From NCBI GenBank assembly GCA_017935675.1, contig JAGBHE010000065.1, positions 62,001 to 126,000 on the forward strand: a stretch of DNA of 64,000 nucleotides. Direction: 5' to 3'. Source of the stretch: Clostridia bacterium. Its GTDB lineage: Bacteria; Bacillota; Clostridia; UBA1381. A model generated the notes under the pieces. That model saw only the letters and a list, made by a program, of their open reading frames with translations. It searched no databases and was not told where the DNA came from. Below, piece by piece: positions 8,731-22,597 of the stretch (position 1 is the first letter of the stretch; each line of letters opens with the position of its first letter). Both the position numbers and the translations under genes were made by a program.

Positions 8731-9417
8731 TCAGGGCAGATATTCCTCGTTTACATAGCCTCTGATTTTTTCAAGCGGAATCGGAAATTCAACCACTCCG
8801 CGGGCGTAGTAGGAAAGCTCATACGGTTCAAAGAATATTACAAGATTTTTGTCATCTAAATAAAATTTGTCTTCTCTTGTGCTGTCAATTTGCGGCTGCT
8901 CCCACAGGTCGTGATATGCTTCGCTGTCGTTTTCTATAAGCTCCTTCATTCGTTCGTTCAGAATTTTCGGATATGTATCATCGCAGAACAGATCAGAAAG
9001 CTTCAATGTTCTGTCCGGTGATGAATCATAGGTTTTTGCACTCCACCATGTATTTCCGTGGAGACCGGAAAGATAAACGTATTTTTCCGTTATAACACTG
9101 ATTATGCCGCCGCTGTTCCGCTTGACGGTCTGACGTATCTGAAGACAGGGAGGAGAGCTGCCGGGAACTGTTATCTGTGAAGCCCGGCTCTCGAAATCCT
9201 CAGTCCATTCGGTTATTTCTTTTTCAGCTTCCTCATTGAACTTCTGAATTCCCTCGCTGCTTCCTTCAAGGATTATCCGCTCTCCGTTTATGCTGAATGT
9301 ATCTGTCTCACGGGACACGTTTTCAATTCGTGATTTGATTCCGCCGCTTTGTGCCGTGCAGGCACAGAGAAAGAACAGCGCAAAGACTGATGTGACAGCT
9401 TTTAAAGAATGATGCAA
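8731..9417 (-). CDS. DUF4163/DUF3298 (RsiV-like) lipoprotein
   Basis: A 228-residue secreted lipoprotein. The hydrophobic signal ALFFLCAC contains a lipobox Cys. The body resembles DUF4163 followed by DUF3298: an early GERIILEGSS strand and a late FYLDDKNLVIFFEPYELS segment typical of the PdaC/RsiV fold. A longer reading frame reaches 9564, but its first 49 residues are out-of-frame spoIVA sequence. The likely start is TTG at 9417, with GGTGG six bases upstream. This overlaps the end of spoIVA, suggesting translational coupling. It lies between spoIVA and spoIIP, so a role in sporulation is inferred, not shown. Confidence 0.75.
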   Translation of the reverse strand: MHHSLKAVTSVFALFFLCACTAQSGGIKSRIENVSRETDTFSINGERIILEGSSEGIQKFNEEAEKEITEWTEDFESRASQITVPGSSPPCLQIRQTVKRNSGGIISVITEKYVYLSGLHGNTWWSAKTYDSSPDRTLKLSDLFCDDTYPKILNERMKELIENDSEAYHDLWEQPQIDSTREDKFYLDDKNLVIFFEPYELSYYARGVVEFPIPLEKIRGYVNEEYLP

Positions 9418-9671
9418 ATCAAACCACCGCTTCCCTCGTTTATTATTCTCTGAAGTGTTTCCCTCAGCTTGTTCCTTGACTCGTTCGACATCCTTGAAAG
9501 CTTGTTGTGAAGTCCTTCGTTTACAAGCTCGTACAGAGATTTCCCGAATATGTTTGACTCCCATATCTTTTTCGGATCAGCTTCAAATTCCTCCAGCAGA
9601 TAATGAATAAGCTCCTCACTCTGCTTTTCCGTTCCCACAATCGGACTTACCTCAGTTTCAATCATGGCTTG
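9402..9671 (-). CDS. spoIVA: spoIVA 3' segment (codons 404-492), separated from the 5' segment by the element
   Basis: This segment encodes the last 89 residues of SpoIVA: MIETEVSPIVGTEKQSEE, then SNIFGKSLYELVNEG and the terminal NEGSGGLICIIL. It continues in frame from the 13-bp repeat at 9672-9684 (IHMM). Upstream the frame runs into element DNA as far as an ATG at 9743, adding 24 unrelated residues, so as it stands it is not an intact gene. In B. subtilis the C-terminal part of SpoIVA is needed for localisation on the forespore, so the 5' segment alone should be non-functional. Joined to codons 1-403 at 22532-21324, it gives exactly 492 codons. Confidence 0.93.
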   Translation of the reverse strand, partial: QAMIETEVSPIVGTEKQSEELIHYLLEEFEADPKKIWESNIFGKSLYELVNEGLHNKLSRMSNESRNKLRETLQRIINEGSGGLICIIL

Positions 9672-9684
9672 CATCATATGTATA
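9672..9684. other. Left attachment-site core of the spoIVA element
   Basis: CATCATATGTATA is identical to 21324-21336 and in the same orientation. Both copies encode the same spoIVA codons (Ile-His-Met-Met on the minus strand), so recombination between them leaves the reading frame unchanged. On the element side, GCAGCAAACAGA at 9689-9700 is the exact reverse complement of 21311-21322 at the other end. Confidence 0.9.
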
Positions 9685-9715
9685 ATGAGCAGCAAACAGA
9701 AGTGTTTACATCTAA

Positions 9716-9980: not shown

Positions 9981-11363
9981 ATGTTTATAGACAGAGAAAA
10001 TGAGATGCAAACCTTAGAGAGTGAGTATGCCCGCCAAGGTTCATCGCTTGTTATAATGTACGGTCGCCGCAGAGTAGGTAAAACTACGCTTATCTCCGAG
10101 TTTATCAAAAATAAAAATGCTCTGTTCTTCTTGGCGAGTGAAGAGGCAGAAGTGCAGAACAGAATGGTATTCAAGAATAAAGCGGCAGACTTTATAGGAA
10201 GCGAGCTTTTAAAAAATGCAAAGGTTTCGGATTGGGATACAATCTTTAAAGCGATAATGGAAACGAGCTTTACCCGGAAACCAATAATAGTTATAGACGA
10301 ATTTCAGTATCTCGGAAAATCTAATCCGGCATTTCCATCTGTTTTTCAGCGCATATGGGAGGAACACCTGAAAAGTAAAGCTGTTATGGTTATTCTTTGC
10401 GGCTCGCTCATATCCATGATGAAATCGCAAACGCTTGATTATTCAAGTCCGCTGTATGGCAGACGAACTGCGCAGATAAGATTGAAACCGCTTTCTTTTA
10501 AATACTACAAGAAATTTTTCCCGCAAAAAAAAGAAAAAGATTTAATCCCTATGTATGCGGTAACAGGAGGTATACCTAAATATATAGAACTGTTTTCAGA
10601 CAGTGATGATGTTTTCACGTCTATTGAAAGATGCGTGCTAAATCCATCAGGCTATTTGTATGATGAGCCGCATTTTTTGCTTCAACAGGAGGTTTCTGAA
10701 ATTGGAAGTTATTTTTCAATAATAAAAGCGATTGCCGCAGGGAACACCAAGCTTTCCGCAATATCGGCTGTACTCGAAATAAAGGCAACCGGCTTGACAA
10801 AATATTTAAAAACGCTTATAGATTTAGATGTTTTGGAGCGTGAAGTGCCGGTCACGGAAGATAATCCCGAAAAGAGTAAAAAGGGACTTTATAAAATCAA
10901 AGATAACTACATCAGATTTTGGTTTGCCTTTGTTTATCCGAATATGAGCTTTATCGAAAGCGGAAACAGTGAGATTGTAATAAATAAAATACGAAGAGAC
11001 TTAAATTCAAGGCAGGTATCATATGTTTATGAAGATATATGCAGAGAAAAAATGTGGGATATGAACGTATCGGGTGTATGGCCCTTCAACTTCACTAAAT
11101 TAGGAAGATATTGGAATAATAAAGATGAGATTGATATTGCCGCTGTTGATACCGAGGGCAATAACCTGATATTAGGTGAATGTAAGTATTGGAGCGAACC
11201 TGTCGGTATTAACATCTTGACTGCACTTGAAGAAAAAGCGGCAAGCGTAGATTGGAAAAAAGGCAGCCGTAATGTCCATTATGTTATATTTTCTGCATCC
11301 GGTTTTACACCCGAACTCACAAAGCTTGCCCGCAGCAGACCTGATGTTGTGCTTGCAGAGTAA
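9981..11363 (+). CDS. COG1672-type ATPase with C-terminal nuclease-like domain
   Basis: A 460-residue P-loop ATPase. Walker A is GRRRVGKTT near residue 29 and Walker B is IIVIDEFQYL near residue 102. A winged-helix region follows (about 230-290). The C-terminal part resembles DUF234, with DEIDIAAVD and LGECKYW (near residues 390-405) forming an E/D...ExK pattern like PD-(D/E)XK nucleases. The biological role of this family is unsettled; defence or toxin-like functions are often suggested. GGAAGGAG lies just upstream of the ATG at 9981. It is transcribed alone behind a long structured leader and ends at a terminator shared with the recombinase gene. Confidence 0.8.
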   Translation: MFIDRENEMQTLESEYARQGSSLVIMYGRRRVGKTTLISEFIKNKNALFFLASEEAEVQNRMVFKNKAADFIGSELLKNAKVSDWDTIFKAIMETSFTRKPIIVIDEFQYLGKSNPAFPSVFQRIWEEHLKSKAVMVILCGSLISMMKSQTLDYSSPLYGRRTAQIRLKPLSFKYYKKFFPQKKEKDLIPMYAVTGGIPKYIELFSDSDDVFTSIERCVLNPSGYLYDEPHFLLQQEVSEIGSYFSIIKAIAAGNTKLSAISAVLEIKATGLTKYLKTLIDLDVLEREVPVTEDNPEKSKKGLYKIKDNYIRFWFAFVYPNMSFIESGNSEIVINKIRRDLNSRQVSYVYEDICREKMWDMNVSGVWPFNFTKLGRYWNNKDEIDIAAVDTEGNNLILGECKYWSEPVGINILTALEEKAASVDWKKGSRNVHYVIFSASGFTPELTKLARSRPDVVLAE

Positions 11364-11376
11364 TCTGTATTGAATA

Positions 11377-11413
11377 GAAAATCTCCCTGTCCGGATGAGA
11401 CAAGGAGATTTTC
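11377..11413. terminator. Bidirectional terminator between the ATPase and recombinase genes
   Basis: Arms GAAAATCTCC (11377-11386) and GGAGATTTTC (11404-11413) form a 10-bp stem, extended by GTC/GAC pairing inside. A T-rich run follows on the plus strand and an A-rich one precedes it. The two genes converge here. Confidence 0.75.
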
Positions 11414-11417
11414 ATTT

Positions 11418-13142
11418 TTAGACAGAGTAACAGAGGTCGTAATTAAAAATAAGCTCATATTCCTTCACAGACCTTGAGTTGCCGCCGCGGGTTTGAGCGA
11501 TACTGCCGGATGAGAGAAGCAGCCGATGCTCGTTATGGGGCAGACTGTCCTTTTGCCAAGGAATATTTTTCGGCATAAGCTTCAGAAAGATTTTAAGGTC
11601 AATCCGGTTTGGAACATCGCTTTTATAAACAACGATTTTATCAATAAAGCTGTCAATAACATTTTTGCCGAGTTCATCAGAAAAATCCAGTTCATCGGAA
11701 ATAGCAGAGCGGAGATTTTCAATACTTTCTTTAATATTAATTTTTTTTTGCTCTTCTTTATCAAGCCTTGTGAGCTCAGATTTTAATTTTTCAATTTGCT
11801 TATTGAAGCTGTTGTTCCTCTGTTCAAATTCCTCATTTGAAAGTCTGTTGTCCAGGCTTAAATCAAGCAGCTTGTCTTTCTTGGCAATAACAGCGTTAAT
11901 GTCAGAAATAATTTTATGCTTTGATTTAGCAATTGCCTTTTCAGAGCCGTTTTCCTTATAAAGTTCAATAAGCTCACTTACAATAGTTGTTTTCTCGCAT
12001 ACAACCTGATTATATACTTCTCTCATAACAGCGTCAAGCTCTGATGTATAAATAATCGGATTGCGGCATTTATTGCCATTACCGTACTCCTTGCAAGCCC
12101 ACAGTTCCTTATTGCCTGACTTGTATTTGTAGACTGTATGATGATAACAAGTCCCATGCTCACCGCATACAATCCTGCCGGAATACAGATACTTGTTTTG
12201 ATAGCTCGTCTTATTTTCACTTGTCATTTTGCTGCTTCGCTCTTTGAGCTTTCGGTTCGCCTTGTCCCAAAGCTCAGGAGATACAATGGGAGGTACCTTT
12301 TCATTATCCTTATATATAACCCATTCATCAGGGGGGAGGTATTTAACATCATTATGTCTGAAATCAATTTTGTGCGTTTTATGTCCGCAGTAATAGCCTT
12401 TATATTTTGGATTGACCAAAATACCTTTAACAGAAGAAAAAGAAAAAGGATTACCGTTTGTGTTTCTGTAGCCTGAATCGGTAATAGCTTTTGCAATTTT
12501 TCTGACACCCATATTTTCATTTGCGTACAAATCAAAAATCATACGAACCATTTCTGCTTCTTCCGGTACAATAACCAGCTTGCCTTGTTCCTTGCGATAT
12601 CCCCAAATACAATCGTTGCCGAGTACAACCCCTTTATTTATGGATTCTCTGAAGCCAAACTTAACACGCTCCGAGATTTTTCTGGTCTCATCCTGTGCAA
12701 TGCTCGACATAATCGTAAGTCGAAGCTCGGCGTCAGGGTCAAGAGTATTGATGTTATCACTTTCAAAAATAACACCTACGCCGTTTCTTAAAAGCTCTTG
12801 TGTATATGACAAGCTATCTATGGTATTTCTCGCAAATCTTGAAATTTCTTTAGTAAGGATTAAATCAAATTTGTGTGATTTGGCATCGCGTATCATTCTC
12901 AGAAAATTGTCTCTGTTTTTTACTGAGGTTGCCGATATACCTTCGTCAATGTAGCCTCTGATTAAGGTCCAGTTTGAATTCCCGGCAACCAATTCTTCAA
13001 AATGCTTCTGCTGTGCTGATAACGAATGCAATTGCTCGTCCTTGTCTGTTGAAACTCTGGCGTAATATACCACCTTTAAATCAAGATCCGATAATTTTTT
13101 ATTATTTTTTTTGATTTCTTCTCTTATCGTATAAATATCCAT
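11418..13142 (-). CDS. Large serine recombinase (site-specific integrase/excisionase)
   Basis: A 574-residue large serine recombinase that should integrate and excise the element. The N-terminal resolvase domain starts with YYARVSTDKDEQ, whose Ser attacks DNA, followed by the SRFAR and DETRKISERV segments. Next come the recombinase domain (GYRKEQGKLVIVPEEA), a zinc-ribbon region (CGEHGTCYHH...CKEYGNGNKC) and a coiled-coil-rich C-terminal part (about 400-480). This is the SpoIVCA/phiC31 type. AGGAGGG precedes the ATG. It lies 1.7 kb from the left end, 44 bp behind a 53-residue gene likely in the same transcript. It is the only recombinase in the element. Confidence 0.96.
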   Translation of the reverse strand: MDIYTIREEIKKNNKKLSDLDLKVVYYARVSTDKDEQLHSLSAQQKHFEELVAGNSNWTLIRGYIDEGISATSVKNRDNFLRMIRDAKSHKFDLILTKEISRFARNTIDSLSYTQELLRNGVGVIFESDNINTLDPDAELRLTIMSSIAQDETRKISERVKFGFRESINKGVVLGNDCIWGYRKEQGKLVIVPEEAEMVRMIFDLYANENMGVRKIAKAITDSGYRNTNGNPFSFSSVKGILVNPKYKGYYCGHKTHKIDFRHNDVKYLPPDEWVIYKDNEKVPPIVSPELWDKANRKLKERSSKMTSENKTSYQNKYLYSGRIVCGEHGTCYHHTVYKYKSGNKELWACKEYGNGNKCRNPIIYTSELDAVMREVYNQVVCEKTTIVSELIELYKENGSEKAIAKSKHKIISDINAVIAKKDKLLDLSLDNRLSNEEFEQRNNSFNKQIEKLKSELTRLDKEEQKKINIKESIENLRSAISDELDFSDELGKNVIDSFIDKIVVYKSDVPNRIDLKIFLKLMPKNIPWQKDSLPHNEHRLLLSSGSIAQTRGGNSRSVKEYELIFNYDLCYSV

Positions 13143-13186
13143 GAGATGTCCCTCCTGTCAGCAGCCGCGTCATGGCAGGTACACCT

Positions 13187-13348
13187 TCAGCTTGCCGGTT
13201 TCACTAAAATTTCTTTTGCAGTCCGGTACATTTCCTCGGATATCAGCTTTTTATCGAATAATTTCTGATTGACAAACATCTTAAGCTCGTTGTTGAATTG
13301 TTCCCTGTTTTTTCTAAGCGTATCATCTGCTTGTACAGTTTTTGTCAT
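13187..13348 (-). CDS. Small protein upstream of the recombinase, candidate directionality factor
   Basis: A 53-residue, charged, probably helical protein (starts MTKTVQADDTLRKNRE, ends AKEILVKPAS). The start is ATG at 13348, with AGG about 9 bases upstream; the longer frame to 13390 lacks a ribosome site. I do not recognise a named family; the C-terminal half loosely resembles SHOCT-like segments. It lies just upstream of the recombinase in the same direction. In SP-beta and the C. difficile skin element, a small separate protein (SprB, CD1234) switches the serine recombinase to excision. Position and size make this the best candidate for that role here, by inference only. Confidence 0.6.
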   Translation of the reverse strand: MTKTVQADDTLRKNREQFNNELKMFVNQKLFDKKLISEEMYRTAKEILVKPAS

Positions 13349-13371
13349 ATAGAATACCTGCCTTTCAATGC

Positions 13372-13418
13372 GTTTTATGTATTTGTACATAAATATGAAG
13401 GCATTTTAAAAAATATGA
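13372..13418 (-). promoter_or_regulatory. Candidate sigma-E promoters for the 53-residue gene and recombinase
   Basis: Two minus-strand TCATATT -35-like motifs occur: 13412-13418 pairs with CATATTTA (13390-13397) at 14 bp, and 13392-13398 pairs with CATAAAAC (13372-13379) at 12 bp. Each fits the sigma-E pattern only partly. The same TCATATT and a 14-bp spacer occur in the better spoIVA promoter. The DNA is AT-rich, so chance is possible. Confidence 0.35.
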
Positions 13419-13434
13419 ATGATATTTCGTAATT

Positions 13435-13677
13435 TTATTCGGAAGTGTTTTGCAAAGGATGATTTTCGTTTATTATATATCCTCTTGAGTTAAGATAAAT
13501 ATCAATATCATTATTGATGTAATTATGTCCTGTAGTATGCAGAACATCGTAAAATTCGCGAATGTAATCAAATACTCCGTATCTATCGAAAAGCAAGGAA
13601 ACTTCCCGACCGTTTAAATTTCGGTATGTTTTGTAATTTCCCAAGCAAAACACAGTAAATGCCATTTCTTTACTCAT
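13435..13677 (-). CDS. DUF3791 family protein
   Basis: An 80-residue protein with the DUF3791 pattern: VFCLGNYKTYRNLNGREVS, LFDRYGVFDYI, then VLHTTGHNYINNDIDIYL. This family is usually found beside DUF3990 genes in Clostridia, where the pair is suspected to be a toxin-antitoxin-like module; the mechanism is unknown to me. AAGGAG precedes the ATG at 13677. It is last in a three-gene minus-strand run whose first member is a truncated DUF3990 gene. Confidence 0.75.
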   Translation of the reverse strand: MSKEMAFTVFCLGNYKTYRNLNGREVSLLFDRYGVFDYIREFYDVLHTTGHNYINNDIDIYLNSRGYIINENHPLQNTSE

Positions 13678-13689
13678 TGCTAAATCTCC

Positions 13690-13926
13690 TTATACATCCG
13701 GGAACTGAATATTTCCGTATTTTTCTTCCTGCTCAAATAAACTGTACAACATATGTGTGCTATATTGCCAAACCTTGGTTTCTTCATTTTCAAGTGCCGC
13801 ATACAATTTTGAAGAATAGAGTTTTTTTATCGCATCTTCTTCAGAAATGTTTTGCTTTTCAACTATCAATGAAACTAAATCCGTGCTTATATAAGGCATC
13901 ATTGCAATAAATTGTTCCTGTCTCAT
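13690..13926 (-). CDS. Conserved small protein of the DUF3990/DUF3791 locus
   Basis: A 78-residue protein starting MRQEQFIAMMPYISTD and ending near EKYGNIQFPDV. The ATG at 13926 has AGGAGG six bases upstream; a longer frame to 13959 overlaps the upstream gene and is not preferred. I do not recognise a named domain, though proteins of this kind often accompany DUF3791 genes. It lies 12 bp before the DUF3791 gene and 10 bp behind the DUF3990 remnant, so all three were probably one operon. Confidence 0.65.
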   Translation of the reverse strand: MRQEQFIAMMPYISTDLVSLIVEKQNISEEDAIKKLYSSKLYAALENEETKVWQYSTHMLYSLFEQEEKYGNIQFPDV

Positions 13927-13936
13927 AAATATCCTC

Positions 13937-14287
13937 CTATTTGACTTCTTTCGCTTCAATAAAGTTCAAATATTTTAAAATTTCATCGCTATGCAAAGTC
14001 CATTGATCATGTAATACTTCTGTTTTTAATTTCTTAACGGTATACTCTGCATCGTAGGCACCTGTTTCAAATAATCGAATAGATTGATATATGTTATCAT
14101 CTGCAACAGGACCGATATGCATATCTGTTTTGCTATCAATTATATTACCTTTGCGATTATTTACAACAAATAATAACCATTCTTCATCTGCATTATTAAA
14201 TCTTTTTATAGTAAGTTTCTTTTCTGCATTTTCTATATCAAATTCATATATAGACACATAACCTAAATTGACGTTTTTTCTGCGCAT
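13937..14287 (-). pseudogene. DUF3990 protein, N-terminally truncated
   Basis: The 116 codons match the C-terminal half of DUF3990: GYVSIYEFD, EEWLLFVVNNRKG and the IGPVADDNIYQSI segment. DUF3990 proteins normally begin with an ADP-ribosyltransferase-like region (LYHGS...), which is missing. A stop codon lies in frame directly upstream of the ATG at 14287, there is no ribosome-binding site, and the DNA beyond does not restore the domain. It is most likely an inactivated remnant. Another DUF3990 fragment lies at 19171-19302. Confidence 0.65.
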
Positions 14288-14397
14288 TTAAATCAACATT
14301 TTTGTGTGATAAAATTTGTTGTGGTTACGTTAGAAAAGTTTTAGTACTATGCACCGCATTTCATTTTAATATATCACAAATGAGCCGACAGTCATAT

Positions 14398-14874
14398 TTA
14401 TCCTTTACATTGTATTGTTTCAGCAAAGTTGTAAATTTTAATATTTTTTTGCTTTTGTGCATATTTCAGCGTTTGAGCAGCGCCGCCCCAGGAGTATTTA
14501 ACAAAGCATATCATAAATTGAGAGCTTTCAACCATGTACTGATTGCATTTTAGTATCATAAATCTTTTCGGGGTTTTTTCGGAAATAGCGGCAATTAAAA
14601 TATTGTCATAATTCTTGTAATACAGATTTTTATTTTCATTTATTGTGTTTGTCAGATAAGGAATAACAAGATTTAATTGAATATGCGGATACTTCTTTTT
14701 TACTTCTCTGACAGCCCGTGCTGCAAGACTGTCAAAGCTTCCGTAGTTTCCAACCTGGAATTCCGACACATTTTTATTTATTATAAGCTCTTCAATCTTG
14801 CTTGATATTTGACTAAACAGCTTATCACTTTCATATATTTTGCTGTGCCCGGCAAAACAACATACATTTGACAT
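14398..14874 (-). CDS. SLOG-superfamily (DUF1273/YpsA-like) protein
   Basis: A 158-residue protein beginning VCCFAGHSKIYES, close to the CCFTGHR-type opening of DUF1273/YpsA proteins. NYGSFDSLAARAVREVKKKYP matches the second SLOG signature, a Gly-Ser/Asp turn then a helix. SLOG folds bind nucleotides or nucleotide-derived ligands and occur in conflict and stress systems; the ligand here is unknown. TGAGGTG precedes the ATG at 14874. It is divergent from the XRE regulator at 15055, which may control it. Confidence 0.7.
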   Translation of the reverse strand: MSNVCCFAGHSKIYESDKLFSQISSKIEELIINKNVSEFQVGNYGSFDSLAARAVREVKKKYPHIQLNLVIPYLTNTINENKNLYYKNYDNILIAAISEKTPKRFMILKCNQYMVESSQFMICFVKYSWGGAAQTLKYAQKQKNIKIYNFAETIQCKG

Positions 14875-15054
14875 TTTATTTTCACCTCATACTAAAATAT
14901 AAAAACACTTCTTTTAATTGTAAATGCAAACAATTTAATTGTATTATATCACATATTAAACAAAAATGCAATCATTTTATTCTCTTTTAAGAAAATATTG
15001 ATTGTCGATAATGATATTAATTTGGAATATAATATATTACAGAGGTGAGAGTGG
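14875..15054. promoter_or_regulatory. Divergent control region between SLOG-like and XRE genes
   Basis: This 180-bp AT-rich gap serves two divergent genes. A palindrome AATTGT-N8-ACAATT at 14916-14935 lies on the SLOG-gene side and could be the regulator's operator. TATAAT at 15028-15033 lies 22 bp before the XRE start, but no good -35 is visible. Confidence 0.35.
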
Positions 15055-15282
15055 ATGAAAAATAAGAATTTTGATGTCTGGCTTGGTATAGGTCTGAACA
15101 TTTTGCATTATAGAAAGGAACAGGGAATGACACAGATACAGTTAGCGGAGAAATGCGGTATAAGCAGAACATATATGCAGAAAATCGAAACTGCCGCTTG
15201 CTCCTGTACACTTGATACATTGATTGACATAGCGGAAGCTCTTAATGTTCCGCTTAAGAAATTGTTTGAATTTAAGGATTAA
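15055..15282 (+). CDS. XRE-family HTH transcriptional regulator
   Basis: A 75-residue single-domain Cro/CI-type DNA-binding protein. The helix-turn-helix is MTQIQLAEKCGISRTYMQKIE (about residues 25-45), followed by DTLIDIAEALNVPLKKLF. It has no sensor domain, so it is probably a simple repressor of its own promoter or the divergent SLOG-like gene. AGAGGTGAG precedes the ATG. It ends at a terminator shared with the convergent DUF4143 ATPase gene. Confidence 0.88.
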   Translation: MKNKNFDVWLGIGLNILHYRKEQGMTQIQLAEKCGISRTYMQKIETAACSCTLDTLIDIAEALNVPLKKLFEFKD

Positions 15283-15284
15283 AA

Positions 15285-15316
15285 AAGAGAGACTCTTTTT
15301 GATTTAAGTCTCTCTT
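15285..15316. terminator. Bidirectional terminator after the XRE gene
   Basis: Arms AAGAGAGACT (15285-15294) and AGTCTCTCTT (15307-15316) form a perfect 10-bp stem with a 12-nt loop. It lies between two convergent genes. The flanking A-run favours termination of the minus-strand gene. Confidence 0.75.
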
Positions 15317-15323
15317 CAGAATT

Positions 15324-16685
15324 TTACACTGTCATAGTGCCTTCTGCAAGGTCTTTTGCAACAAAGGGGATAAAGTAGAAGGGCACTGTCAAAAGCTTTT
15401 GTTTTTCATTATAATCGTAGTTGTTTTTTGATACTTTTATTGCAAATTCAAACTTGTTATGATTTGAGAATTTTTCAAGTGAGTTCAGCACACCTCTGCC
15501 TTTTTTTACATCTATAGGATACAGCTTGTTGTCTGATTCTATTATAAATTCAAGCTCTGCTGAGGATCTCCCTTTCCAATAGAACAGCTTATGACCTTTT
15601 GCAACAAGCTCGTTTGCAGCAAAATTCTCAAAGAAAATTCCCGATAATGTGTTATCTCTGTCGTTTGAAATGAAAGATGCCGCATTGATTCCGCTTTGAT
15701 ATGAGAACATTCCGATATCGCCGAGGAATAGGCGGAAATTGCTTTCGTTATCGGTCATAAGCGGTGTTGTGATATGTTCTTTTAACTGAAAAGATTGATT
15801 TATAATATGCGCCATTGTCAGCCACTGAACAGATGTTACAAAATCTCTTGTTTTACTCTTTGCTTCAATTAGTCCGGGTGAAAAATTTTTGGATTCTTTA
15901 TTCAGTTCCCTGTAGATGTTGGAGAACAGATTGCGGGAACGAAGAACCGCCTCTCTGCTCGCCTGATACAAGTCCATATCAGAAAGGTAATTGTCGTAAA
16001 GAACCTTTAAAATTTCTCTCGATTCAAAAAGATTATCATCTTCTATATATGTTTCAACTGCTTCCGGCATACCGCCTACAAGTAAATATTTATATACCTG
16101 TTCCAACGCAAGCCGGTGAATTTTCGTATCAAGTGATTTTTTGTTTTCGTATGCTGTTTTTATTGTGTCGTACAGCATTTTATTGCTATTCATCAAAAAT
16201 TCGTCAAAGGTCATAGGATAAACCGTAATCTGATTTATTTTGCCGACAGGGAATAAAAACTTACCGTTTTCACCCATACCTCTTTTGTGAGTTTCCCTTT
16301 GAATTTTAATACGTACCATTGAACCGGTGGCGATAACGGGAATTGTTCTGAAATCCTGGCAAAAATATTTAAGCGATGACACGATATTTGGGCATTCCTG
16401 AACTTCATCAAAAATCAGCAGCGTGTTTTCGGTTATTTTTTTACCTTTAAGCAGAGAAATATATTCTATAATCTTTTCCGCATTTGCCGTTCCGGAACAA
16501 AACTCGCGAATTTCGTCCTCAATCTTGCAGTCAATGTAGATGTAGTTATTTTTATAATAAGCTTCTGCAAACATATCTTTAATAAGGTATGTTTTTCCAA
16601 CCTGCCTTGCACCCCACACGATTAAAGGCTTTCTTCTTTTGTTATTATTCCAATCAATCAGTTTTTGCGTTGCATTTCGTTCCAT
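15324..16685 (-). CDS. AAA_14/DUF4143 ATPase with nuclease-like tail, copy A
   Basis: A 453-residue protein. Walker A is GARQVGKT near residue 25 and Walker B is LLIFDEVQECPN near residue 90. A DUF4143 winged-helix region (around RSRNLFSNIYREL) follows, and the C-terminus has AELEFIIES...YPIDVKKG, a D/E...DxK pattern resembling PD-(D/E)XK nucleases. The physiological role of this family is not established. The start is ATG at 16685 with GGAGG seven bases upstream; the longer frame to 16745 overlaps the promoter. It is monocistronic. Confidence 0.82.
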   Translation of the reverse strand: MERNATQKLIDWNNNKRRKPLIVWGARQVGKTYLIKDMFAEAYYKNNYIYIDCKIEDEIREFCSGTANAEKIIEYISLLKGKKITENTLLIFDEVQECPNIVSSLKYFCQDFRTIPVIATGSMVRIKIQRETHKRGMGENGKFLFPVGKINQITVYPMTFDEFLMNSNKMLYDTIKTAYENKKSLDTKIHRLALEQVYKYLLVGGMPEAVETYIEDDNLFESREILKVLYDNYLSDMDLYQASREAVLRSRNLFSNIYRELNKESKNFSPGLIEAKSKTRDFVTSVQWLTMAHIINQSFQLKEHITTPLMTDNESNFRLFLGDIGMFSYQSGINAASFISNDRDNTLSGIFFENFAANELVAKGHKLFYWKGRSSAELEFIIESDNKLYPIDVKKGRGVLNSLEKFSNHNKFEFAIKVSKNNYDYNEKQKLLTVPFYFIPFVAKDLAEGTMTV

Positions 16686-16716
16686 ATATAAACCTCCGAT
16701 AATATAGGTTATTTCT

Positions 16717-16745
16717 ATTTTACCATAACTCACACTAAATTGCAA
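16717..16745 (-). promoter_or_regulatory. Promoter for the DUF4143 ATPase gene (copy A)
   Basis: On the minus strand TTGCAA (16740-16745) and TAAAAT (16717-16722) are separated by 17 bp, about 30 bp upstream of the ATG at 16685. Nothing else was recognised between 16746 and 16869. Confidence 0.65.
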
Positions 16746-16869
16746 GTATTTTAAAGCATTATTTGCACCTTTTACGAGGTTTTATTTTTAATTATTTGCA
16801 CCTACAGCTTTTTTTATGCGATCGCAAAGTTCATTATAGATAAAAGCATGATCTTTTCCATATCAACAC

Positions 16870-17478
16870 CTACTTTAAATCTTCCGTTTTAAAGGTAGTA
16901 TAGCCCTCGTAGTAATAACTTGTATCAATACCCTTCATATACACTTCACGGCTCTGTATTTTGTCTGTAAGGGCATTTTTGAGTATATGCTTAATCTCAA
17001 TATCTCTGATAGGACTTCTCTCCATAGCAAGGAGATAATCTTCCTTTGAAACCTTGCTCCAATCTACAACCTTGCCCTGTTCCTTTTTCAAGATTAAATC
17101 TAACCAGATACGTGTTGCTCTGCCATTGCCCTCACGGAAAGGATGAGCAATGTTCATTTCAACATATTTTTCAATAATTGTATCAAAATCAGATTGCGGC
17201 ATTTTGTCGATGTTGTCAAGTGCCGCATGCAAATACATAAGCGGAGCAAATCTGAAATTGCCTTTTGCTATATTGACATCTCGCATCTTACCTGCAAAAT
17301 CGTAGATTTCATCAAAAAGATATTTGTGTATGAGTGAAAGACTTTCAAATGTTCCTGCTGTCAGGGTATCAAGATAACCCGATTCAAACAGTTCAAGAGC
17401 TTTCTTTTTACTGATTTTTTCTTCTTCACGGGCAAGGCTAGCTGCATCTGTTATGCCCAATTTATTTTTAAGTGCCAT
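16870..17478 (-). CDS. Fic-domain protein (probable AMP-transferase)
   Basis: A 202-residue Fic protein. The motif HPFREGNGRATR (near residue 113) has the catalytic His and phosphate-binding loop intact, so it should transfer AMP or another nucleotide group to a target protein. I see no internal inhibitory (S/T)xxxE(G/N) helix, which in class I Fic toxins is supplied by a separate antitoxin. TTGGAGG precedes the ATG at 17478. It follows the HipA-like kinase by 14 bp and is the last gene of a three-gene operon. The target is unknown. Confidence 0.88.
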   Translation of the reverse strand: MALKNKLGITDAASLAREEEKISKKKALELFESGYLDTLTAGTFESLSLIHKYLFDEIYDFAGKMRDVNIAKGNFRFAPLMYLHAALDNIDKMPQSDFDTIIEKYVEMNIAHPFREGNGRATRIWLDLILKKEQGKVVDWSKVSKEDYLLAMERSPIRDIEIKHILKNALTDKIQSREVYMKGIDTSYYYEGYTTFKTEDLK

Positions 17479-17492
17479 AAAATAGCCTCCAA

Positions 17493-18530
17493 TTACCTTT
17501 CCATGAGGTTATAACCATTCATAATAAACTCTGTTATTTCTTTTGATTTTACACGCATTCCCACGGCTTTAATTGCATTTTTTATTAAATCTTCCGAGAG
17601 AGTAGGAATATACTTTTTCAGACCTTCATCATAATGCATCAGTTTGTTAAATAATTTTATAAGCAAATCATTTTTGCGTGTGATGTTTTTCGGATAACCT
17701 CTTGATATAAGTGCCATATTGTTATCAAAATTAGGTGCTAAACCTAAAATCCTGCCGCTGTCAACATCTCTCAAAATACCAAAGTTAAAAGTGTGTCTGT
17801 CAGGATTTGCACAGATTGTATCTAAAAATAACATCTTTACATAATCACCAACTGCATTCGGACAAAGAGTTTTAAGCATTTCAACAGATTTGATGTAATC
17901 TTCATCATCCCCCAGAATGTTAAATGCCGGTTCAAAATTTACAGAGGCGTTACCTGTAAAATCTTTTGTTTTAATAACACTGTTGCCACGCTCGTATTCT
18001 GCCATGTTAAAACCAAGTGCTCTGCCGAGTTCGTATATGAAAAGCTCGGAAAACATTTCATTATGGTTAGCCTTTTTGAACACCCACCATTGACCATTTT
18101 TTAGCTTCCAGCACTTTTCAAAGCTTCCGATATTGGTTAGCTCGGGGGTTTTAGAGCTTTTGCTGTTTGCAGCCTTGTTAAAACTGTCATAGCTGCCTGT
18201 CAGAGCAAGATTTGCGAAGTAATCATTATCAAATCTGACATCTTCATAGGTTAAATCTGAATCTAAGAGTTTTATCCAGTAATTATCCGTAATCGTGACA
18301 GCATTAACCGATAAAACAGTTGAAACATCATCCTTTTCAGTTAAGCGAAGTGCCTTTTTTAATAATCTGGAATTTGCTCTATGACAATCTATTGCCCTTG
18401 TTTCAAGCCATTTTTTTACATTGCCTGTATTTTGCAAATATAAAGGCAGCAGATTTTTATTTATTACTTCAAGATTATTGTTTTGCCATTTTGCCGCCAC
18501 AGCGTCCCGTGACATAATATAGAAGTCCAT
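17493..18530 (-). CDS. HipA-like serine/threonine kinase-fold protein
   Basis: A 345-residue protein. CANPDRHTFNFGIL (near residue 240) corresponds to the HipA catalytic loop NxDRHxxNxG, and LAPNFDNNMAL (near 263) to the metal-binding D-N segment. WWVFKKANHNEMFSELF carries the expected ATP-binding Lys and a downstream Glu. The first 100 residues differ from E. coli HipA and there is no HipB-type antitoxin beside it. AAGGAGGG precedes the ATG at 18530. It sits between a 106-residue conserved protein (upstream) and Fic (downstream). A toxin-like role is inferred. Confidence 0.8.
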   Translation of the reverse strand: MDFYIMSRDAVAAKWQNNNLEVINKNLLPLYLQNTGNVKKWLETRAIDCHRANSRLLKKALRLTEKDDVSTVLSVNAVTITDNYWIKLLDSDLTYEDVRFDNDYFANLALTGSYDSFNKAANSKSSKTPELTNIGSFEKCWKLKNGQWWVFKKANHNEMFSELFIYELGRALGFNMAEYERGNSVIKTKDFTGNASVNFEPAFNILGDDEDYIKSVEMLKTLCPNAVGDYVKMLFLDTICANPDRHTFNFGILRDVDSGRILGLAPNFDNNMALISRGYPKNITRKNDLLIKLFNKLMHYDEGLKKYIPTLSEDLIKNAIKAVGMRVKSKEITEFIMNGYNLMER

Positions 18531-18556
18531 AACAAACCCTCCTTATTCTCGAAACA

Positions 18557-18877
18557 TTAGCATGATCTTCCCATCAGAAACCGCACAGCTTCCTGTAAAT
18601 CGCTGCTGAAATCTTCAATATCTTTAAAATCAATCGCACCATCTCTAATTAAGCAAACAAGATCAAAGGGCATATCTTGCTTGTTCATTCTTATTAACAC
18701 GCCTTTATTTCTTTTGTCATTCTTGATTCGTTTTTCTAATGCCCAGAACTTCTCGGACGGAGTACCGTTGCCCTCAAGGAGCTCTATATATTCATTATTA
18801 AGTTTTTCCATGTACGATTCTTGCCAATTGGCAATCTTTTCACAAAAGAGCTTCCAATCTTGTTTTGAAACTTCCAT
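18557..18877 (-). CDS. Conserved protein of the HipA-Fic operon
   Basis: A 106-residue acidic, helical protein (starts MEVSKQDWKLFCEKIA, contains EKFWALEKRIKND and ends near AVRFLMGRSC). ATG 18877 has AAAGGAG upstream; the longer frame to 18922 is disfavoured. I recognise it as a conserved protein often placed before HipA-like kinase genes, but know no function. As the first gene of the operon, upstream of two putative toxins, it could be the neutralising partner. Its transcript would begin with the structured leader repeat, copy 2. Confidence 0.65.
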   Translation of the reverse strand: MEVSKQDWKLFCEKIANWQESYMEKLNNEYIELLEGNGTPSEKFWALEKRIKNDKRNKGVLIRMNKQDMPFDLVCLIRDGAIDFKDIEDFSSDLQEAVRFLMGRSC

Positions 18878-18930
18878 AACATTCGCTCCTTTAAAAGCTT
18901 GATTTAACAAGTTTTTCTGCAATTATTATA

Positions 18931-19057
18931 CTATAAGTAAAAAAGCTTGCTCGCAAGGGCATTTTTACGCAGCCGTCATTATACTCATATGCAAAATGAA
19001 ATTTTGCATGCCGTAAAATACGGCTTTGAACAAAGTTCTATGAAGATATTATACCAT
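18931..19057 (-). repeat. Structured leader repeat, copy 2 (inverted relative to copy 1)
   Basis: Read on the minus strand, this is a diverged copy of 9812-9960. It begins TGGTATAATAT and keeps the hairpins GCCGTATTTTACGGC and GCAAAATTTCATTTTGC and the CCCTTGCGAGCAAG hairpin. A second TATAAT lies at the far end. The outer inverted pair is only partly conserved. It lies between the promoter at 19048-19076 and the first gene of the HipA-Fic operon. Confidence 0.8.
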
Positions 19058-19076
19058 ATCATTTATAACAAATCAA
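19048..19076 (-). promoter_or_regulatory. Promoter for the HipA-Fic operon
   Basis: On the minus strand TTGATT (19071-19076) and TATAAT (19048-19053) have a 17-bp spacer. The -10 is part of leader repeat copy 2, as in copy 1 at 9812. Confidence 0.55.
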
Positions 19077-19138
19077 CAGTTTTGTTATAAAATATGAAAT
19101 CGTTTCACTTTTATTTCAAGAAAACTTTTGAAGGTTTA

Positions 19139-19167
19139 TTGACAAAGTATTCTTTTGGGAGTATAAT
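19139..19167 (+). promoter_or_regulatory. Consensus sigma-A promoter upstream of the 153-residue protein
   Basis: TTGACA (19139-19144) and TATAAT (19162-19167) with a 17-bp spacer match consensus fully. The DUF3990-like fragment starts immediately after. The nearest intact gene begins at 19320. Confidence 0.75.
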
Positions 19168-19170
19168 ATA

Positions 19171-19302
19171 AACAGAAATGGATATGCCAACATCTATGAA
19201 ATAGAAACAGATTCTCTTGATATTCTTGATTTAAACGGTGATAAATATATTATTTTGCATTGGTTGGCGATTTTACTTGAAAACCGTGACACAAATTATT
19301 GA
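19171..19302 (+). pseudogene. DUF3990 fragment
   Basis: An open frame of 43 codons reads NRNGYANIYEIETDSLDI, then LDLNGDKYIILHWLAILLENR, ending at TGA 19300-19302. It matches the middle of DUF3990 proteins (the LNWLAILLxNR region). The N-terminal ADP-ribosyltransferase-like part and the C-terminus are missing. The fragment begins at the same family position as the remnant at 13937-14287 (the GYxxIYE strand). It precedes a 153-residue protein of a kind often found beside DUF3990 genes. Confidence 0.6.
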
Positions 19303-19319
19303 TGAGGAGATGTCCGCAA

Positions 19320-19781
19320 ATGATTCACGCTTACGATAAAGCGTATCTTGATAAGGCAAGAACGAATCTTGCAAGGATGTTAGATTTTGCGGTTTATGAT
19401 TTGAAATATAATATTTCAGATTTTTTTGATATGTTTTTGAGTTCAGGCCTTGCCGCAAGATTTGAAAAGGGAGATTTTCAGATTGTTGCAGGTAAATCCG
19501 GCGCAGAGCTTGCTTATGACGTCTTGGAAATCTTGGGAGAAGATAAAAGAGATATTAAGCCCAAATATACTGCAAACAGGAGCGAAGAGTACTGGACCGG
19601 ATGGGCACTTGCGTATTATCAGTGGGAAACGGGACTTACATTTGCTGAGATTGTAAAGTATATTTCTATTTCTGAAATATTAAGATTATATAATCCTTAC
19701 CATGAGATGGATATAAGGCAATTTGTTGATAAAATGAATGAACTGTACAGAGCGGCAAAACCTGACACAAATCTCTTTTAG
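19320..19781 (+). CDS. Conserved protein associated with DUF3990 loci
   Basis: A 153-residue protein starting MIHAYDKAYLDKARTNLAR, with a distinctive SEEYWTGWALAYYQWETGL segment and ending MNELYRAAKPDTNLF. I recognise the family as common in clostridial genomes beside DUF3990/DUF3791 genes, but it has no function I can name. GAGGAG at 19304-19309 fits ATG 19320; the longer frame from a TTG at 19299 is unlikely. The promoter at 19139 probably drives it. Confidence 0.75.
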   Translation: MIHAYDKAYLDKARTNLARMLDFAVYDLKYNISDFFDMFLSSGLAARFEKGDFQIVAGKSGAELAYDVLEILGEDKRDIKPKYTANRSEEYWTGWALAYYQWETGLTFAEIVKYISISEILRLYNPYHEMDIRQFVDKMNELYRAAKPDTNLF

Positions 19782-19858
19782 AATATTGACATTATGATGC
19801 TTTTGTGGTAATATAACTATAGAAAATCGCAAAAAGGTGCAAAAATCTCTTTTAGAAT
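19769..19858 (+). repeat. 16-bp direct repeat and promoter between two genes
   Basis: AAATCTCTTTTAGAAT occurs at 19769-19784 (the end of the upstream gene) and again at 19843-19858. The second copy creates an ATG at 19857 without a ribosome site. Between the copies, TTGACA (19786-19791) and TAATAT (19809-19814), 17 bp apart, form a likely promoter for the ATPase gene. Confidence 0.6.
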
Positions 19859-19868
19859 GGTGATTGAT

Positions 19869-21164
19869 ATGGAAATTAAGCGGGATTTATATTTGAATAA
19901 GCTGATAAACCTTAAACATAACGGGTTAATTAAGGTTATAACGGGTATCAGAAGATGCGGAAAATCCTATCTTTTAAATGATATATTTTATAATCATCTA
20001 TTGGAATGCGGAGTAGATGAAAGTCATATTATCCGCTTTGCCTTCGATTCCGGTGATGATTTGGATTTAATCGGCGAAAGCATCATAGAAATAGAAAAAA
20101 AGAACAGAAAAGTTAATCCCGAAAAGTTTATGGCATATATCCGCACCAAGATGACAGATAATGAAGTGTACTATCTTCTTTTAGACGAGGTGCAGATGCT
20201 TGATTGCTTTGAAACTGTTTTAAATGGTTATCTGCGCAAGAAGAATATGGATGTATATGTTACCGGTAGTAATGCGAAATTTTTGTCCAGGGATATTATT
20301 ACGGAATTTGCCGGCCGTGGTGATGAAATTCATATGTATCCCCTGAGTTTTTCTGAATTTATGACAGTATATAAGGGCGATAAATATGAGGGCTTGTCAG
20401 AATATATGCTTTATGGCGGCATTCCCTTGATAGTTCTCCGAGACGGACAGGCAAATAAAGCATCTGCACTTGAAAATCTTTTCAGTGAAATCTATGTAAG
20501 AGATATTCAGCAAAGAAACAAGATCAGAAATATAGGCGAGCTTGAAGATTTGCTCAATATAGTATCTTCAGCCATAGGTTCGCTTACTAACCCTGAAAAG
20601 CTGAAAAACACTTTTAAATCGATTAAGAATTCAAAAATAACCTCAACAACGATAAAAAAATATCTTGATTGTTTTGAAGATGCATTTTTGATTGAATCGG
20701 CACAAAGGTATGATATTAAAGGAAAATCTTATATAGAAACACCTAAAAAGTATTATTTTTCCGATATGGGGCTTCGTAATGCCCGTATAAATTTCCTACA
20801 GTTTGAGCAACCCCACGCAATGGAGAATGTAATCTATAACGAGCTCAGAATGCGCGGGTACAGAGTGGATGTTGGTGTCGTTCCTATTACAGAAAAAGAC
20901 AAAAAAGGCAAAACTGTCAGAAAACAGTTAGAGGTTGATTTTATATGCAATCTTGGTTCAATGAAATACTATATTCAGTCTGCATTTGCAATGCCGGATG
21001 AGGAAAAGAGAACCCGGGAAATCAGACCGTTTAAGAAAATCAATGATTCATTTAAGAAAATTATAATAACAAAGGACATTGTTCCGGCTTATTATGATGA
21101 AAATGGTATCTTAACAATGAATATATATGATTTTCTGCTTGATGAAAAGAGCTTGGAAAAATAG
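19869..21164 (+). CDS. AAA_14/DUF4143 ATPase with nuclease-like tail, copy B
   Basis: A 431-residue protein. Walker A is GIRRCGKSY near residue 26 and Walker B is YYLLLDEVQML near residue 100. A TGSN sensor segment, a DUF4143 region (IVSSAIGSLTNPEKLK) and a C-terminal QLEVDFICNL...YYIQSAF follow; the last Lys of the ExK pattern is not evident, so the nuclease-like fold may be inactive. It is distant from copy A. ATG 19869, five bases after GGTGA, is preferred over 19857. It is the last gene before the right end of the element. Its role is unknown. Confidence 0.8.
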   Translation: MEIKRDLYLNKLINLKHNGLIKVITGIRRCGKSYLLNDIFYNHLLECGVDESHIIRFAFDSGDDLDLIGESIIEIEKKNRKVNPEKFMAYIRTKMTDNEVYYLLLDEVQMLDCFETVLNGYLRKKNMDVYVTGSNAKFLSRDIITEFAGRGDEIHMYPLSFSEFMTVYKGDKYEGLSEYMLYGGIPLIVLRDGQANKASALENLFSEIYVRDIQQRNKIRNIGELEDLLNIVSSAIGSLTNPEKLKNTFKSIKNSKITSTTIKKYLDCFEDAFLIESAQRYDIKGKSYIETPKKYYFSDMGLRNARINFLQFEQPHAMENVIYNELRMRGYRVDVGVVPITEKDKKGKTVRKQLEVDFICNLGSMKYYIQSAFAMPDEEKRTREIRPFKKINDSFKKIIITKDIVPAYYDENGILTMNIYDFLLDEKSLEK

Positions 21165-21212: not shown

Positions 21213-21249
21213 ATAAAATGCTTGCGAAACTTTTCTTGTAATTCTATAA

Positions 21250-21277
21250 AAAGCACAGACCATCACATCTGTGCTTT
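21250..21277. terminator. Hairpin terminator at the right end of the element
   Basis: Arms AAAGCACAGA (21250-21259) and TCTGTGCTTT (21268-21277) form a 10-bp stem with an 8-nt loop. It would separate the ATPase gene (plus strand) from the truncated spoIVA frame (minus strand, stop at 21291). Confidence 0.65.
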
Positions 21278-21290
21278 AAAAATGCCTATT

Positions 21291-22532
21291 TTATGCAGCA
21301 TTTAAGAACCTCTGTTTGCTGCACATCATATGTATACTCGGTGCTGATGCTTTAAGCTTTACTCCGAATCTGCCGCCTTGTTTAACTATTTTTGGCTCAT
21401 CAAGGGTCAACTCGTCGGTGCAGGGGGAAACTATTCCGTAGCCTGTTTCCCTTACGTCTTTCAGCGCCGCGGCGATTTTATCATATTCGGATTTTGTTGC
21501 GGCAAGCTCACGCATAAGGCGCATAAGCGACATTTCATCATTGACGCTGAAGCCGGTTTCCTCGCCGAGAATTTTATAGAACATTCCGGGAGTGATTTCA
21601 GCGCGCATAACAACCTCGCCAACGCCGAGATCCATGCCTTCTATTGATGAGCTTTCAATAAATTCAAATTCTTCAATAGATTTGGCAAGGGCTCTTGTAT
21701 GCCGAACCTTGCTTATGTCATTCATTTTTTCGAGTATACCCTCGTTTATGGATTTCTTCAGCCAGTGTCCGTTATCAAGGGTGGACAGCCATGACGGGAC
21801 TTTAATGCTGATTTCACGGAGAGGAAACTCAAAAAGAACAGCTTCTATTATTCTGTGAATATCTGCCGCCTCAAGTTGTGCGCAGTTTACCGGAACTACA
21901 GGCACCTCATATTCTGCCTCCATGCTTTCCTTAAGCTGCATTGTTTCGTCACTTCCCGGTGAAACGTTGTTAAGAAGCACTATAAAGGGCTTGTTTATCT
22001 CGCGAAGCTCGTTAATTACCCGTTTTTCTGCAGTGACGTAATCTTCTCTCGGTATTTCCGTTATGCTTCCGTCCGTTGTTATAACAAGTCCGATATTTGA
22101 ATGCTCGCATATAACCTTTTTTGTTCCTATTTCCGCCGCTTCAAAAAACGGTATCGGACTGTCATTCCATGGTGTTGAAACCATGCGCGGCGCTTCATCT
22201 TCAATATATCCGAGGGCGCTGTCAACGATGTACCCGACGCAGTCTATCATCCGCACCTTAAGGCGCGCATTGTCACCGAGTGAAATTTCCACGGCCTCGT
22301 TAGGAATGAATTTCGGCTCTGTTGTCATTATTGTTCTGCCGCCGGCAGACTGGGGAAGCTCATCCTTTGCCCGCTCGGCTTGATAGCTGTTTCTGATATT
22401 GGGGATAACCAACAAGTCCATAAATTTTTTAATAAAAGTTGACTTGCCTGTTCGCACCGGACCTACAACGCCTATATAAACGTCGCCTCCGGAGCGTTCA
22501 GCTATATCGCCGTAAATATTGTATTCTGCCAT
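21291..22532 (-). CDS. spoIVA: spoIVA 5' segment (codons 1-403 plus 10 element-derived codons)
   Basis: SpoIVA is the ATPase that polymerises on the forespore as the basement layer of the spore coat. This segment starts MAEYNIYGDIAERSGGD, has Walker A GPVRTGKSTFIKKF near residue 23 and MIDCVGYIVDSA near residue 95, and reaches ...APSIHMM at residue 403. It then reads ten foreign residues (CSKQRFLNAA) and stops at 21291. The missing 89 residues are at 9671-9402. ATG 22532 has GGAGG ten bases upstream; the eight extra codons to 22556 are excluded. Unexcised, the 413-residue product lacks the C-terminal localisation region. Confidence 0.95.
   Translation of the reverse strand: MAEYNIYGDIAERSGGDVYIGVVGPVRTGKSTFIKKFMDLLVIPNIRNSYQAERAKDELPQSAGGRTIMTTEPKFIPNEAVEISLGDNARLKVRMIDCVGYIVDSALGYIEDEAPRMVSTPWNDSPIPFFEAAEIGTKKVICEHSNIGLVITTDGSITEIPREDYVTAEKRVINELREINKPFIVLLNNVSPGSDETMQLKESMEAEYEVPVVPVNCAQLEAADIHRIIEAVLFEFPLREISIKVPSWLSTLDNGHWLKKSINEGILEKMNDISKVRHTRALAKSIEEFEFIESSSIEGMDLGVGEVVMRAEITPGMFYKILGEETGFSVNDEMSLMRLMRELAATKSEYDKIAAALKDVRETGYGIVSPCTDELTLDEPKIVKQGGRFGVKLKASAPSIHMMCSKQRFLNAA
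21324..21336. other. Right attachment-site core of the spoIVA element
   Basis: CATCATATGTATA matches 9672-9684 exactly, in the same orientation. On the spoIVA side, codons for Ala-Pro-Ser lead into it. On the element side, TCTGTTTGCTGC at 21311-21322 pairs with 9689-9700 after circularisation. Confidence 0.9.
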
Positions 22533-22568
22533 AAGTAAAGTTCCTCCTTCACGCATTTGTTTATTACA

Positions 22569-22597
22569 GCTATATGCTGAAAATAAAATGAATATGA
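22569..22597 (-). promoter_or_regulatory. Sigma-E-like promoter of spoIVA
   Basis: On the minus strand TCATATT (22591-22597) and CATATAGC (22569-22576) are separated by 14 bp, close to the sigma-E consensus (KMATATT, then CATACAMT). It lies 37 bp upstream of the spoIVA ATG. In known spore formers spoIVA is an early mother-cell gene under sigma-E. Confidence 0.65.

Follow-up and report, generated by a model that had tools for sequence, protein, structure and literature searches.

Introduction

Large serine recombinases (LSRs) integrate unaided, and their excision reaction requires a directionality factor (RDF). To our knowledge, RDFs have no common family sequence signature, and they are therefore hard to find, as membership of the class cannot be read from a sequence.

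Several RDFs are known, or have been proposed, from elements that interrupt sporulation genes. Skr, a protein of 64 aa, is the RDF of the skin element of Bacillus subtilis, which interrupts sigK and encodes the LSR SpoIVCA; the skr gene overlaps the 5′ end of spoIVCA by 101 nt (PMC6957869). The phage SPbeta, which occupies spsM and encodes the LSR SprA, has the 58-aa RDF SprB, the gene of which is expressed from a mother-cell promoter and is induced by DNA damage as well (PMC4191935). In the Clostridioides difficile skin element (sigK), the 72-aa RDF CD1234 is driven by sigma-E and needs SpoIIID, and the gene of the LSR, CD1231, is under sigma-A (PMC5025042). For the yin element of Clostridium botulinum (yabG), HEQ52_18460 has been described as a putative RDF with a putative SigK promoter, and 72 and 53 aa are the sizes stated in that work for the pair HEQ52_18460 and CD1234 (PMC10747680).

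The locus described here lies in a stretch of 64,000 nucleotides of a Clostridia genome, referred to below as the window. It contains an interrupted spoIVA gene, an LSR gene, and a small gene encoding a protein of 53 aa, which the preliminary description of the window had put forward as a candidate excision factor.

Results

An 11.65-kb element divides spoIVA

The element divides spoIVA at a 13-bp core and contains both the small gene and the LSR gene. Its main features are as follows.

21291..22556, minus strand: spoIVA 5′ part with the ATPase and middle domains, broken off after residue ~411 and followed by a 10-aa tail
9402..9684, minus strand: spoIVA 3′ part, residues ~407–500 (the last ~93 residues)
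21324..21336, minus strand: att core TATACATATGATG at the spoIVA 5′ junction
9672..9684, minus strand: att core TATACATATGATG at the spoIVA 3′ junction
9689..9699, minus strand: attP arm CTGTTTGCTGC, inverted repeat of the arm at 21312–21322
21312..21322, minus strand: attP arm GCAGCAAACAG
11418..13142, minus strand: LSR of 574 aa with Resolvase and Recombinase domains (PHROG_95 integrase, E=2e-118)

The ends of the element carry the two 11-bp arms in inverted orientation flanking the core, as expected for attP. When the two halves of spoIVA were joined, they gave an uninterrupted open frame of 500 codons, and the joined junction resembled that of intact relatives (ASAPSIHM...TEVSPIVG). A split gene with a restorable frame and a serine recombinase inside the element are also found in the intervening elements of other sporulation genes (skin, SPbeta/spsM, vfbin, gin, and yin), and we infer that the spoIVA element is excised in the mother cell during sporulation.

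The cargo of the element (9981–21164) resembles a toxin/defence island. Its domains include AAA_14/DUF4143 and ATPase_2/DUF234 ATPases, Fic, a HipA-like protein, DUF3791, and a YpsA/SLOG protein, and the DUF3791 protein is accompanied by an N-terminally truncated DUF3990.

Sequence and conservation of the small gene

13187..13348, minus strand: candidate RDF gene encoding the 53-aa small protein, with homologues in every assessable spoIVA element
13357..13366, minus strand: ribosome-binding site GAAAGGCAGG, recognized by sequence, 8 nt ahead of the ATG

The ORF encodes the 53-residue product MTKTVQADDTLRKNREQFNNELKMFVNQKLFDKKLISEEMYRTAKEILVKPAS, and the LSR gene starts 44 bp behind it, at 13142. 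The AlphaFold2 model of the protein consists of two helices (residues 2–32 and 38–49; mean pLDDT 86.8), and its computed pI is 9.45. The charged helical ORF with a good ribosome site 44 bp upstream of the recombinase, as first described, was thus confirmed by the sequence and by the predicted helices. An in-frame ATG farther upstream, at 13390, would extend the protein to 67 aa; this codon overlaps the predicted -10 region, and in the alignment of relatives conservation starts at the start codon of the 53-aa form, not at that of the 67-aa form.

In the spoIVA elements of other species, orthologues of the small gene were found directly upstream of orthologous LSR genes, in L002/G011 (68%), L003/G071 (79%), L004/G072 (51%), and G443 (87%), as well as in G115 and G392. 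Nucleotide changes among the orthologues fall mostly on third codon positions. In all pairs where both values could be computed, dN was well below dS: it was 0.04–0.5 in the gut group, where dS was above 1 or saturated, and 0.01–0.06 in the Ruminiclostridium-like group, where dS was 0.24–0.69 (one pair of identical genes left out). Since dN is well below dS, the small ORF is, as judged from its sequence, a real gene under purifying selection. In an alignment of 12 small-protein sequences, nine columns are invariant (M1, K23, N27, I36, E38, M40, Y41, A44, and K45).

Scans of the small protein against Pfam, NCBIfam, and PHROG gave sub-threshold matches only, e.g. to SHOCT_2 and YqgQ; the search against sequences of solved structures and the fold searches gave nothing significant, and neither a DNA-binding fold nor a Pfam DNA-binding domain was found. 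An Rfam search of the small-gene region returned no match. The SHOCT_2 (PF20612) match was weak and present in 8 of the 12 members, with E=0.0055 for the best of them; the window protein scored 16.1 bits and did not reach the gathering score of 24.

It could be argued that the insertion is dead and that the strain, as a spoIVA mutant, does not sporulate, a view to which the incomplete assembly of the window genome lends itself, but the in-frame restored junction, the intact att arms, and the catalytic serine motif YYARVST retained in the LSR all speak against it. Purifying selection acts moreover on the small gene, and many species have kept the same arrangement; we consider a dead insertion very unlikely.

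Linkage of the small gene to split spoIVA

A profile of four members of the small-gene family, all from spoIVA elements, was searched in 391 Clostridia genomes; although built from such elements, it would still catch close relatives elsewhere by similarity. Twelve genomes matched at E<=0.01, and in 11 of them spoIVA is split, at residue ~411 in ten and at 416–421 in G267. The sole match with an intact spoIVA, in G205, was marginal (E=0.0099). In a separate survey of the SpoIVA junction in the same 391 genomes, 279 had spoIVA, and a split gene was seen in 13; G129, where contigs overlap, and G421, with two whole spoIVA copies, were not counted as split. Two split genomes without a profile match were uninformative, as the contig of G184 starts inside the LSR gene and the contigs of G406 end at the att core. 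G362, represented by the 3′ part only, and G067, in which the 3′ part lies beside an LSR of 42–43%, were left unjudged; the best small-gene candidate of the latter was weak (E=0.24). Each of the 11 assessable split-spoIVA genomes, five of them from one genus, thus has the small gene, and none of the intact-spoIVA genomes in the sample of 391 has a confident match.

An RDF is expected to reside in the same element as its cognate LSR, and this was the case in 11 of 11 assessable elements. The two genes need not be adjacent: in G097, a genome outside the sample of 391, the small gene shares a contig with the spoIVA 5′ part and the LSR gene is on another one, beside the 3′ part. In the genus to which G229 belongs, 1.4 kb separate the small gene from the LSR gene, and in G229 itself a cargo gene lies between them. 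The small gene has thus been retained in the element even where it is displaced from the LSR gene (G097 and the R. cellulolyticum-like group).

Could the small gene be unrelated cargo, such as an antitoxin or stability gene, that came to lie near the recombinase by chance? The richness of the element in toxin/defence-like genes (Fic, HipA-like, DUF3791/DUF3990, and AAA_14/DUF4143) would be in line with this, but the other cargo varies, whereas the small gene accompanies every assessable split spoIVA and, confidently, no intact one. The ~5.9-kb element of G229, for example, has agr-like and dockerin-GH53 genes instead. An origin as chance cargo is therefore extremely improbable.

No relative of the small protein was found in phage records or IMG/VR. 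The 518 phage records contained only distant relatives of the LSR (<60% identity), the plasmid search likewise gave distant LSRs only, and the IMG/VR scan, which detects close relatives only, returned no LSR relative.

The small protein diverges with the recombinase

In a mirror-tree comparison of nine species, four of them from one genus, the distances between small proteins were correlated with those between LSRs when SpoIVA was controlled for (partial r 0.77). With the LSR controlled for, the partial r between small-protein and SpoIVA distances was 0.04 in the same nine species. Between the window and G071, which belongs to another family, the small protein is 79% and the LSR 71% conserved, but the SpoIVA 5′ part only 57%, and this difference suggests that the element, including the small gene, moves between hosts.

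As another possibility, the small protein might regulate the transcription of the LSR gene or of the element. It is a charged helical protein encoded upstream of the LSR gene, and the leader of the small gene contains an inverted repeat, TATGTACAAATACATA, in the window and in G071. A regulator is, however, difficult to reconcile with a divergence that follows the LSR protein, with the lack of a detectable DNA-binding fold or domain in the searches above, and with the retention of the gene where the LSR gene is distant, as in G097 and the R. cellulolyticum-like group. We regard this role as improbable.

Promoter sequences of the small gene and spoIVA

13390..13418, minus strand: sigma-E-like promoter of the small gene, TCATATT-N14-CATATTTA, of the same architecture as the spoIVA promoter
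22573..22597, minus strand: spoIVA promoter, TCATATT-N14-CATA (full form TCATATT-N14-CATATAGC)
21248..21277, minus strand: intrinsic terminator after the truncated spoIVA, with an 11-bp stem and a T run

The terminator at 21248–21277 ends the transcript of the truncated spoIVA, and therefore the small gene of the window needs a promoter of its own. No sigma-70-type promoter was found upstream of the small ORF on its strand. The preliminary description had noted two partial sigma-E-like motifs there, and TCATATT does occur twice (13412–13418 and 13392–13398), but the motifs resolve into one sigma-E-like promoter, the second TCATATT overlapping its -10 sequence. Bare TCATATT is more frequent in the window than expected (35 copies vs 15). 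The spaced pattern TCATATT-N14-CATA, which was set after inspection of the sequences, occurs exactly twice in the 64 kb (0.04 expected), before the small ORF (13394–13418) and before spoIVA, in agreement with the earlier remark that spoIVA uses the same TCATATT. A pattern search of the 4.1-Mb genome gave nine sites, vs five for the reversed control; five of the nine are inside long frames, and the other four precede the small ORF, spoIVA, a P-type ATPase gene, and one further gene. One P-type ATPase of B. subtilis, the Ca2+ ATPase YloB, is specific to sporulation.

The looser pattern HATAWW-N14-CATA was present at all seven separately promoted small genes (gut group and G097) and at one of ten LSR genes, and a sigma-E-like promoter sequence was thereby seen at the small gene in seven species. 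The small genes of the R. cellulolyticum-like group, G155, and G267 gave no match to the N14 promoter pattern. Scores against a broad sigma-E consensus were mostly weak for individual upstream regions and significant only when the species were combined (Fisher p=0.005); the spaced N14 pattern is more specific than this scoring. The promoter sequences suggest that the small gene may be under sigma-E control.

A 25-bp block upstream of the small gene, TTCATATTTATGTACAAATACATAA (13375–13399), is identical in the window and in L003 (upstream of 5751). It contains the inverted repeat TATGTA-CAAA-TACATA and is possibly a SpoIIID or autoregulatory site.

G011 has another arrangement. Its small gene is located 36 bp after the spoIVA 5′ part and ~20 bp before the LSR gene, and no stable hairpin or terminator-like structure was found between the spoIVA 5′ part and the small gene. 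Because the small gene directly follows the 5′ part with no such hairpin, the interrupted spoIVA's own promoter should drive both the small gene and the LSR gene. In G097, the LSR gene is preceded by a sigma-A-like TTGACA/TATAAT.

These data bear on a further explanation, i.e. that the small protein is a general partner of the LSR, a stabiliser or activator for integration as well as excision that does not set direction. Strict linkage and co-divergence with the LSR would suit any obligatory partner, and so would the weak SHOCT-like similarity (8 of 12 members, the window member being under the curated cut-off), since SHOCT domains are thought to mediate oligomerisation. Against this, LSRs normally integrate without help, as described for CD1231 (PMC5025042), and the sigma-E-like promoter is on the small gene but as a rule not on LSR genes, with the LSR gene of G097 having the sigma-A-like one. 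Separate regulation of the two genes is what an excision-only factor needs and therefore argues against a general partner, which we find unlikely.

Variant elements and related recombinases

In G229 (L083:6345-7988) and G097 (L057:15490-17142), the LSR frame extends across the attP arm as far as the att core, and excision would therefore alter the 3′ end of the recombinase gene; the LSR of G229 ends ...SVCCGQYI, with the stop inside the core. In a more divergent clade (LSR 42–43% identity), with G267 (L089:3597-5468) and G067 (L042:62-1936), the LSR gene has no stop codon of its own and its frame reads on into the SpoIVA 3′ part; the junction in G267 is at SpoIVA residue 416–421 instead of 411. 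This clade possibly goes back to a separate insertion event and has a frame in which LSR and SpoIVA are fused.

G229 appears to be Ruminiclostridium (Clostridium) cellulolyticum H10, and its ~5.9-kb element has a dockerin-GH53 gene of the cellulosomal galactanase type and an agr-like set consisting of AgrB, a 44-aa cysteine-containing peptide, and a GHKL kinase (L083:8014-11895). In the annotation of C. cellulolyticum H10, spoIVA was missing and had to be supplied by Galperin et al. 2012 (PMC3533761, Table 2); a split gene may be the reason.

The contigs of G406 (C73:27554, C33:8823; L096, L097) both break off precisely at the att core of spoIVA, which is what a sequenced population with a mixture of excised and integrated forms would give.

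LSRs outside spoIVA (40–43%) are preceded by ORFs of 45–117 aa with a SHOCT-like C-terminal stretch:

L045:4584-4721, L047:1603-1740, L043:9976-10161, L008:1200-1442, and L009:4336-4572: ORFs upstream of other LSRs

Comparison of these ORFs with the spoIVA candidate RDF family gave a weak match for set A4 (hhalign probability 81%, 28 columns) and no profile match for set A3. They may be RDFs, too. Inspection by eye of the genes adjoining these LSRs revealed no recognisable interrupted sporulation gene.

Discussion

Its size, position, promoter, obligatory linkage, and co-divergence lead us to conclude that the 53-aa protein is very probably the cognate RDF of the LSR of the spoIVA-intervening element. 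The proposal of a candidate RDF has thus gained support from the co-occurrence, the co-divergence with the LSR, the purifying selection, and a sigma-E-like promoter that is conserved ahead of the small gene and as a rule absent ahead of the LSR gene. During growth, the element would stay in place since the LSR alone would not join attL and attR. Activation of sigma-E in the mother cell would start transcription of the RDF gene, and in the window also of the downstream LSR gene, from the spoIVA-like promoter. Binding of the two-helix RDF to the LSR, with which the co-divergence of the two proteins is in keeping, would most likely involve the zinc/coiled-coil region at the C terminus of the LSR, and the RDF-bound LSR would then recombine attL with attR. 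The 11.65-kb element would leave as a circle, and the 500-codon spoIVA frame would be restored at the time SpoIVA is required.

It also appears fairly probable, though with less certainty, that these proteins form a new RDF family, which marks a widespread class of spoIVA-intervening elements able to pass from one bacterial family to another. In one or more lineages of this class, spoIVA′, the RDF gene, and the recombinase gene would form an operon read from the interrupted spoIVA promoter, and others would use a spoIVA-like promoter of their own. In such a single operon, switching spoIVA on would also repair spoIVA. The RDF assignment is based on the finding that all assessable elements of one class, in several bacterial families, have the gene together with a defined LSR and att sites. 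With spoIVA, a coat-basement gene of all spore-formers joins the sporulation genes that are apparently restored by excision, and the compact set of LSR, RDF, and att sites is possibly useful as a tool.

Comparison with known systems was made at the sequence level for SprB, and Skr, CD1234, and HEQ52_18460 were likened by description. The preliminary description had pointed to SprB and CD1234 as analogues in size and position without claiming sequence similarity. The analogy holds, and neither BLAST nor profile comparison found any similarity between SprB and the 53-aa family, but the best positional analogue is Skr instead. Both Skr and the 53-aa protein are small, and the gene of each stands in tandem with the LSR gene and directly ahead of it. 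Excision restores a mother-cell gene in the skin system and would do so here; expression of Skr is controlled by sigma-E, and the 53-aa gene has a sigma-E-like promoter. They differ in the target (sigK vs spoIVA) and in the 101-nt overlap of skr with the LSR gene vs the 44-bp gap here.

SprB resembles the small protein in size and in having an LSR gene expressed separately and an interrupted sporulation gene, and the mother-cell promoter of sprB has a putative counterpart in the sigma-E-like promoter of the small gene. Unlike the 53-aa protein (pI 9.45), SprB is acidic (pI 5.4), and sprB lies terminally in the 134-kb phage record. CD1234 is the product of a small sigma-E-driven RDF gene paired with a sigma-A LSR gene, as the sequence suggests for G097, but it has 72 aa and a pI of 5.5, and SpoIIID is needed. 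HEQ52_18460 is likewise a small candidate RDF in an intervening element of a sporulation gene and differs in its target, yabG, and its putative SigK promoter. SHOCT_2 resembles the family in its short two-helix C-terminal motif, but the window member scores below its gathering threshold. The open-access literature searched here describes intervening elements in sigK, spsM, spoVFB, gerE, yabG, and others, and none in spoIVA. The kind of system is known, and the spoIVA target, the RDF family, and the spoIVA′-RDF-LSR operon appear to be new.
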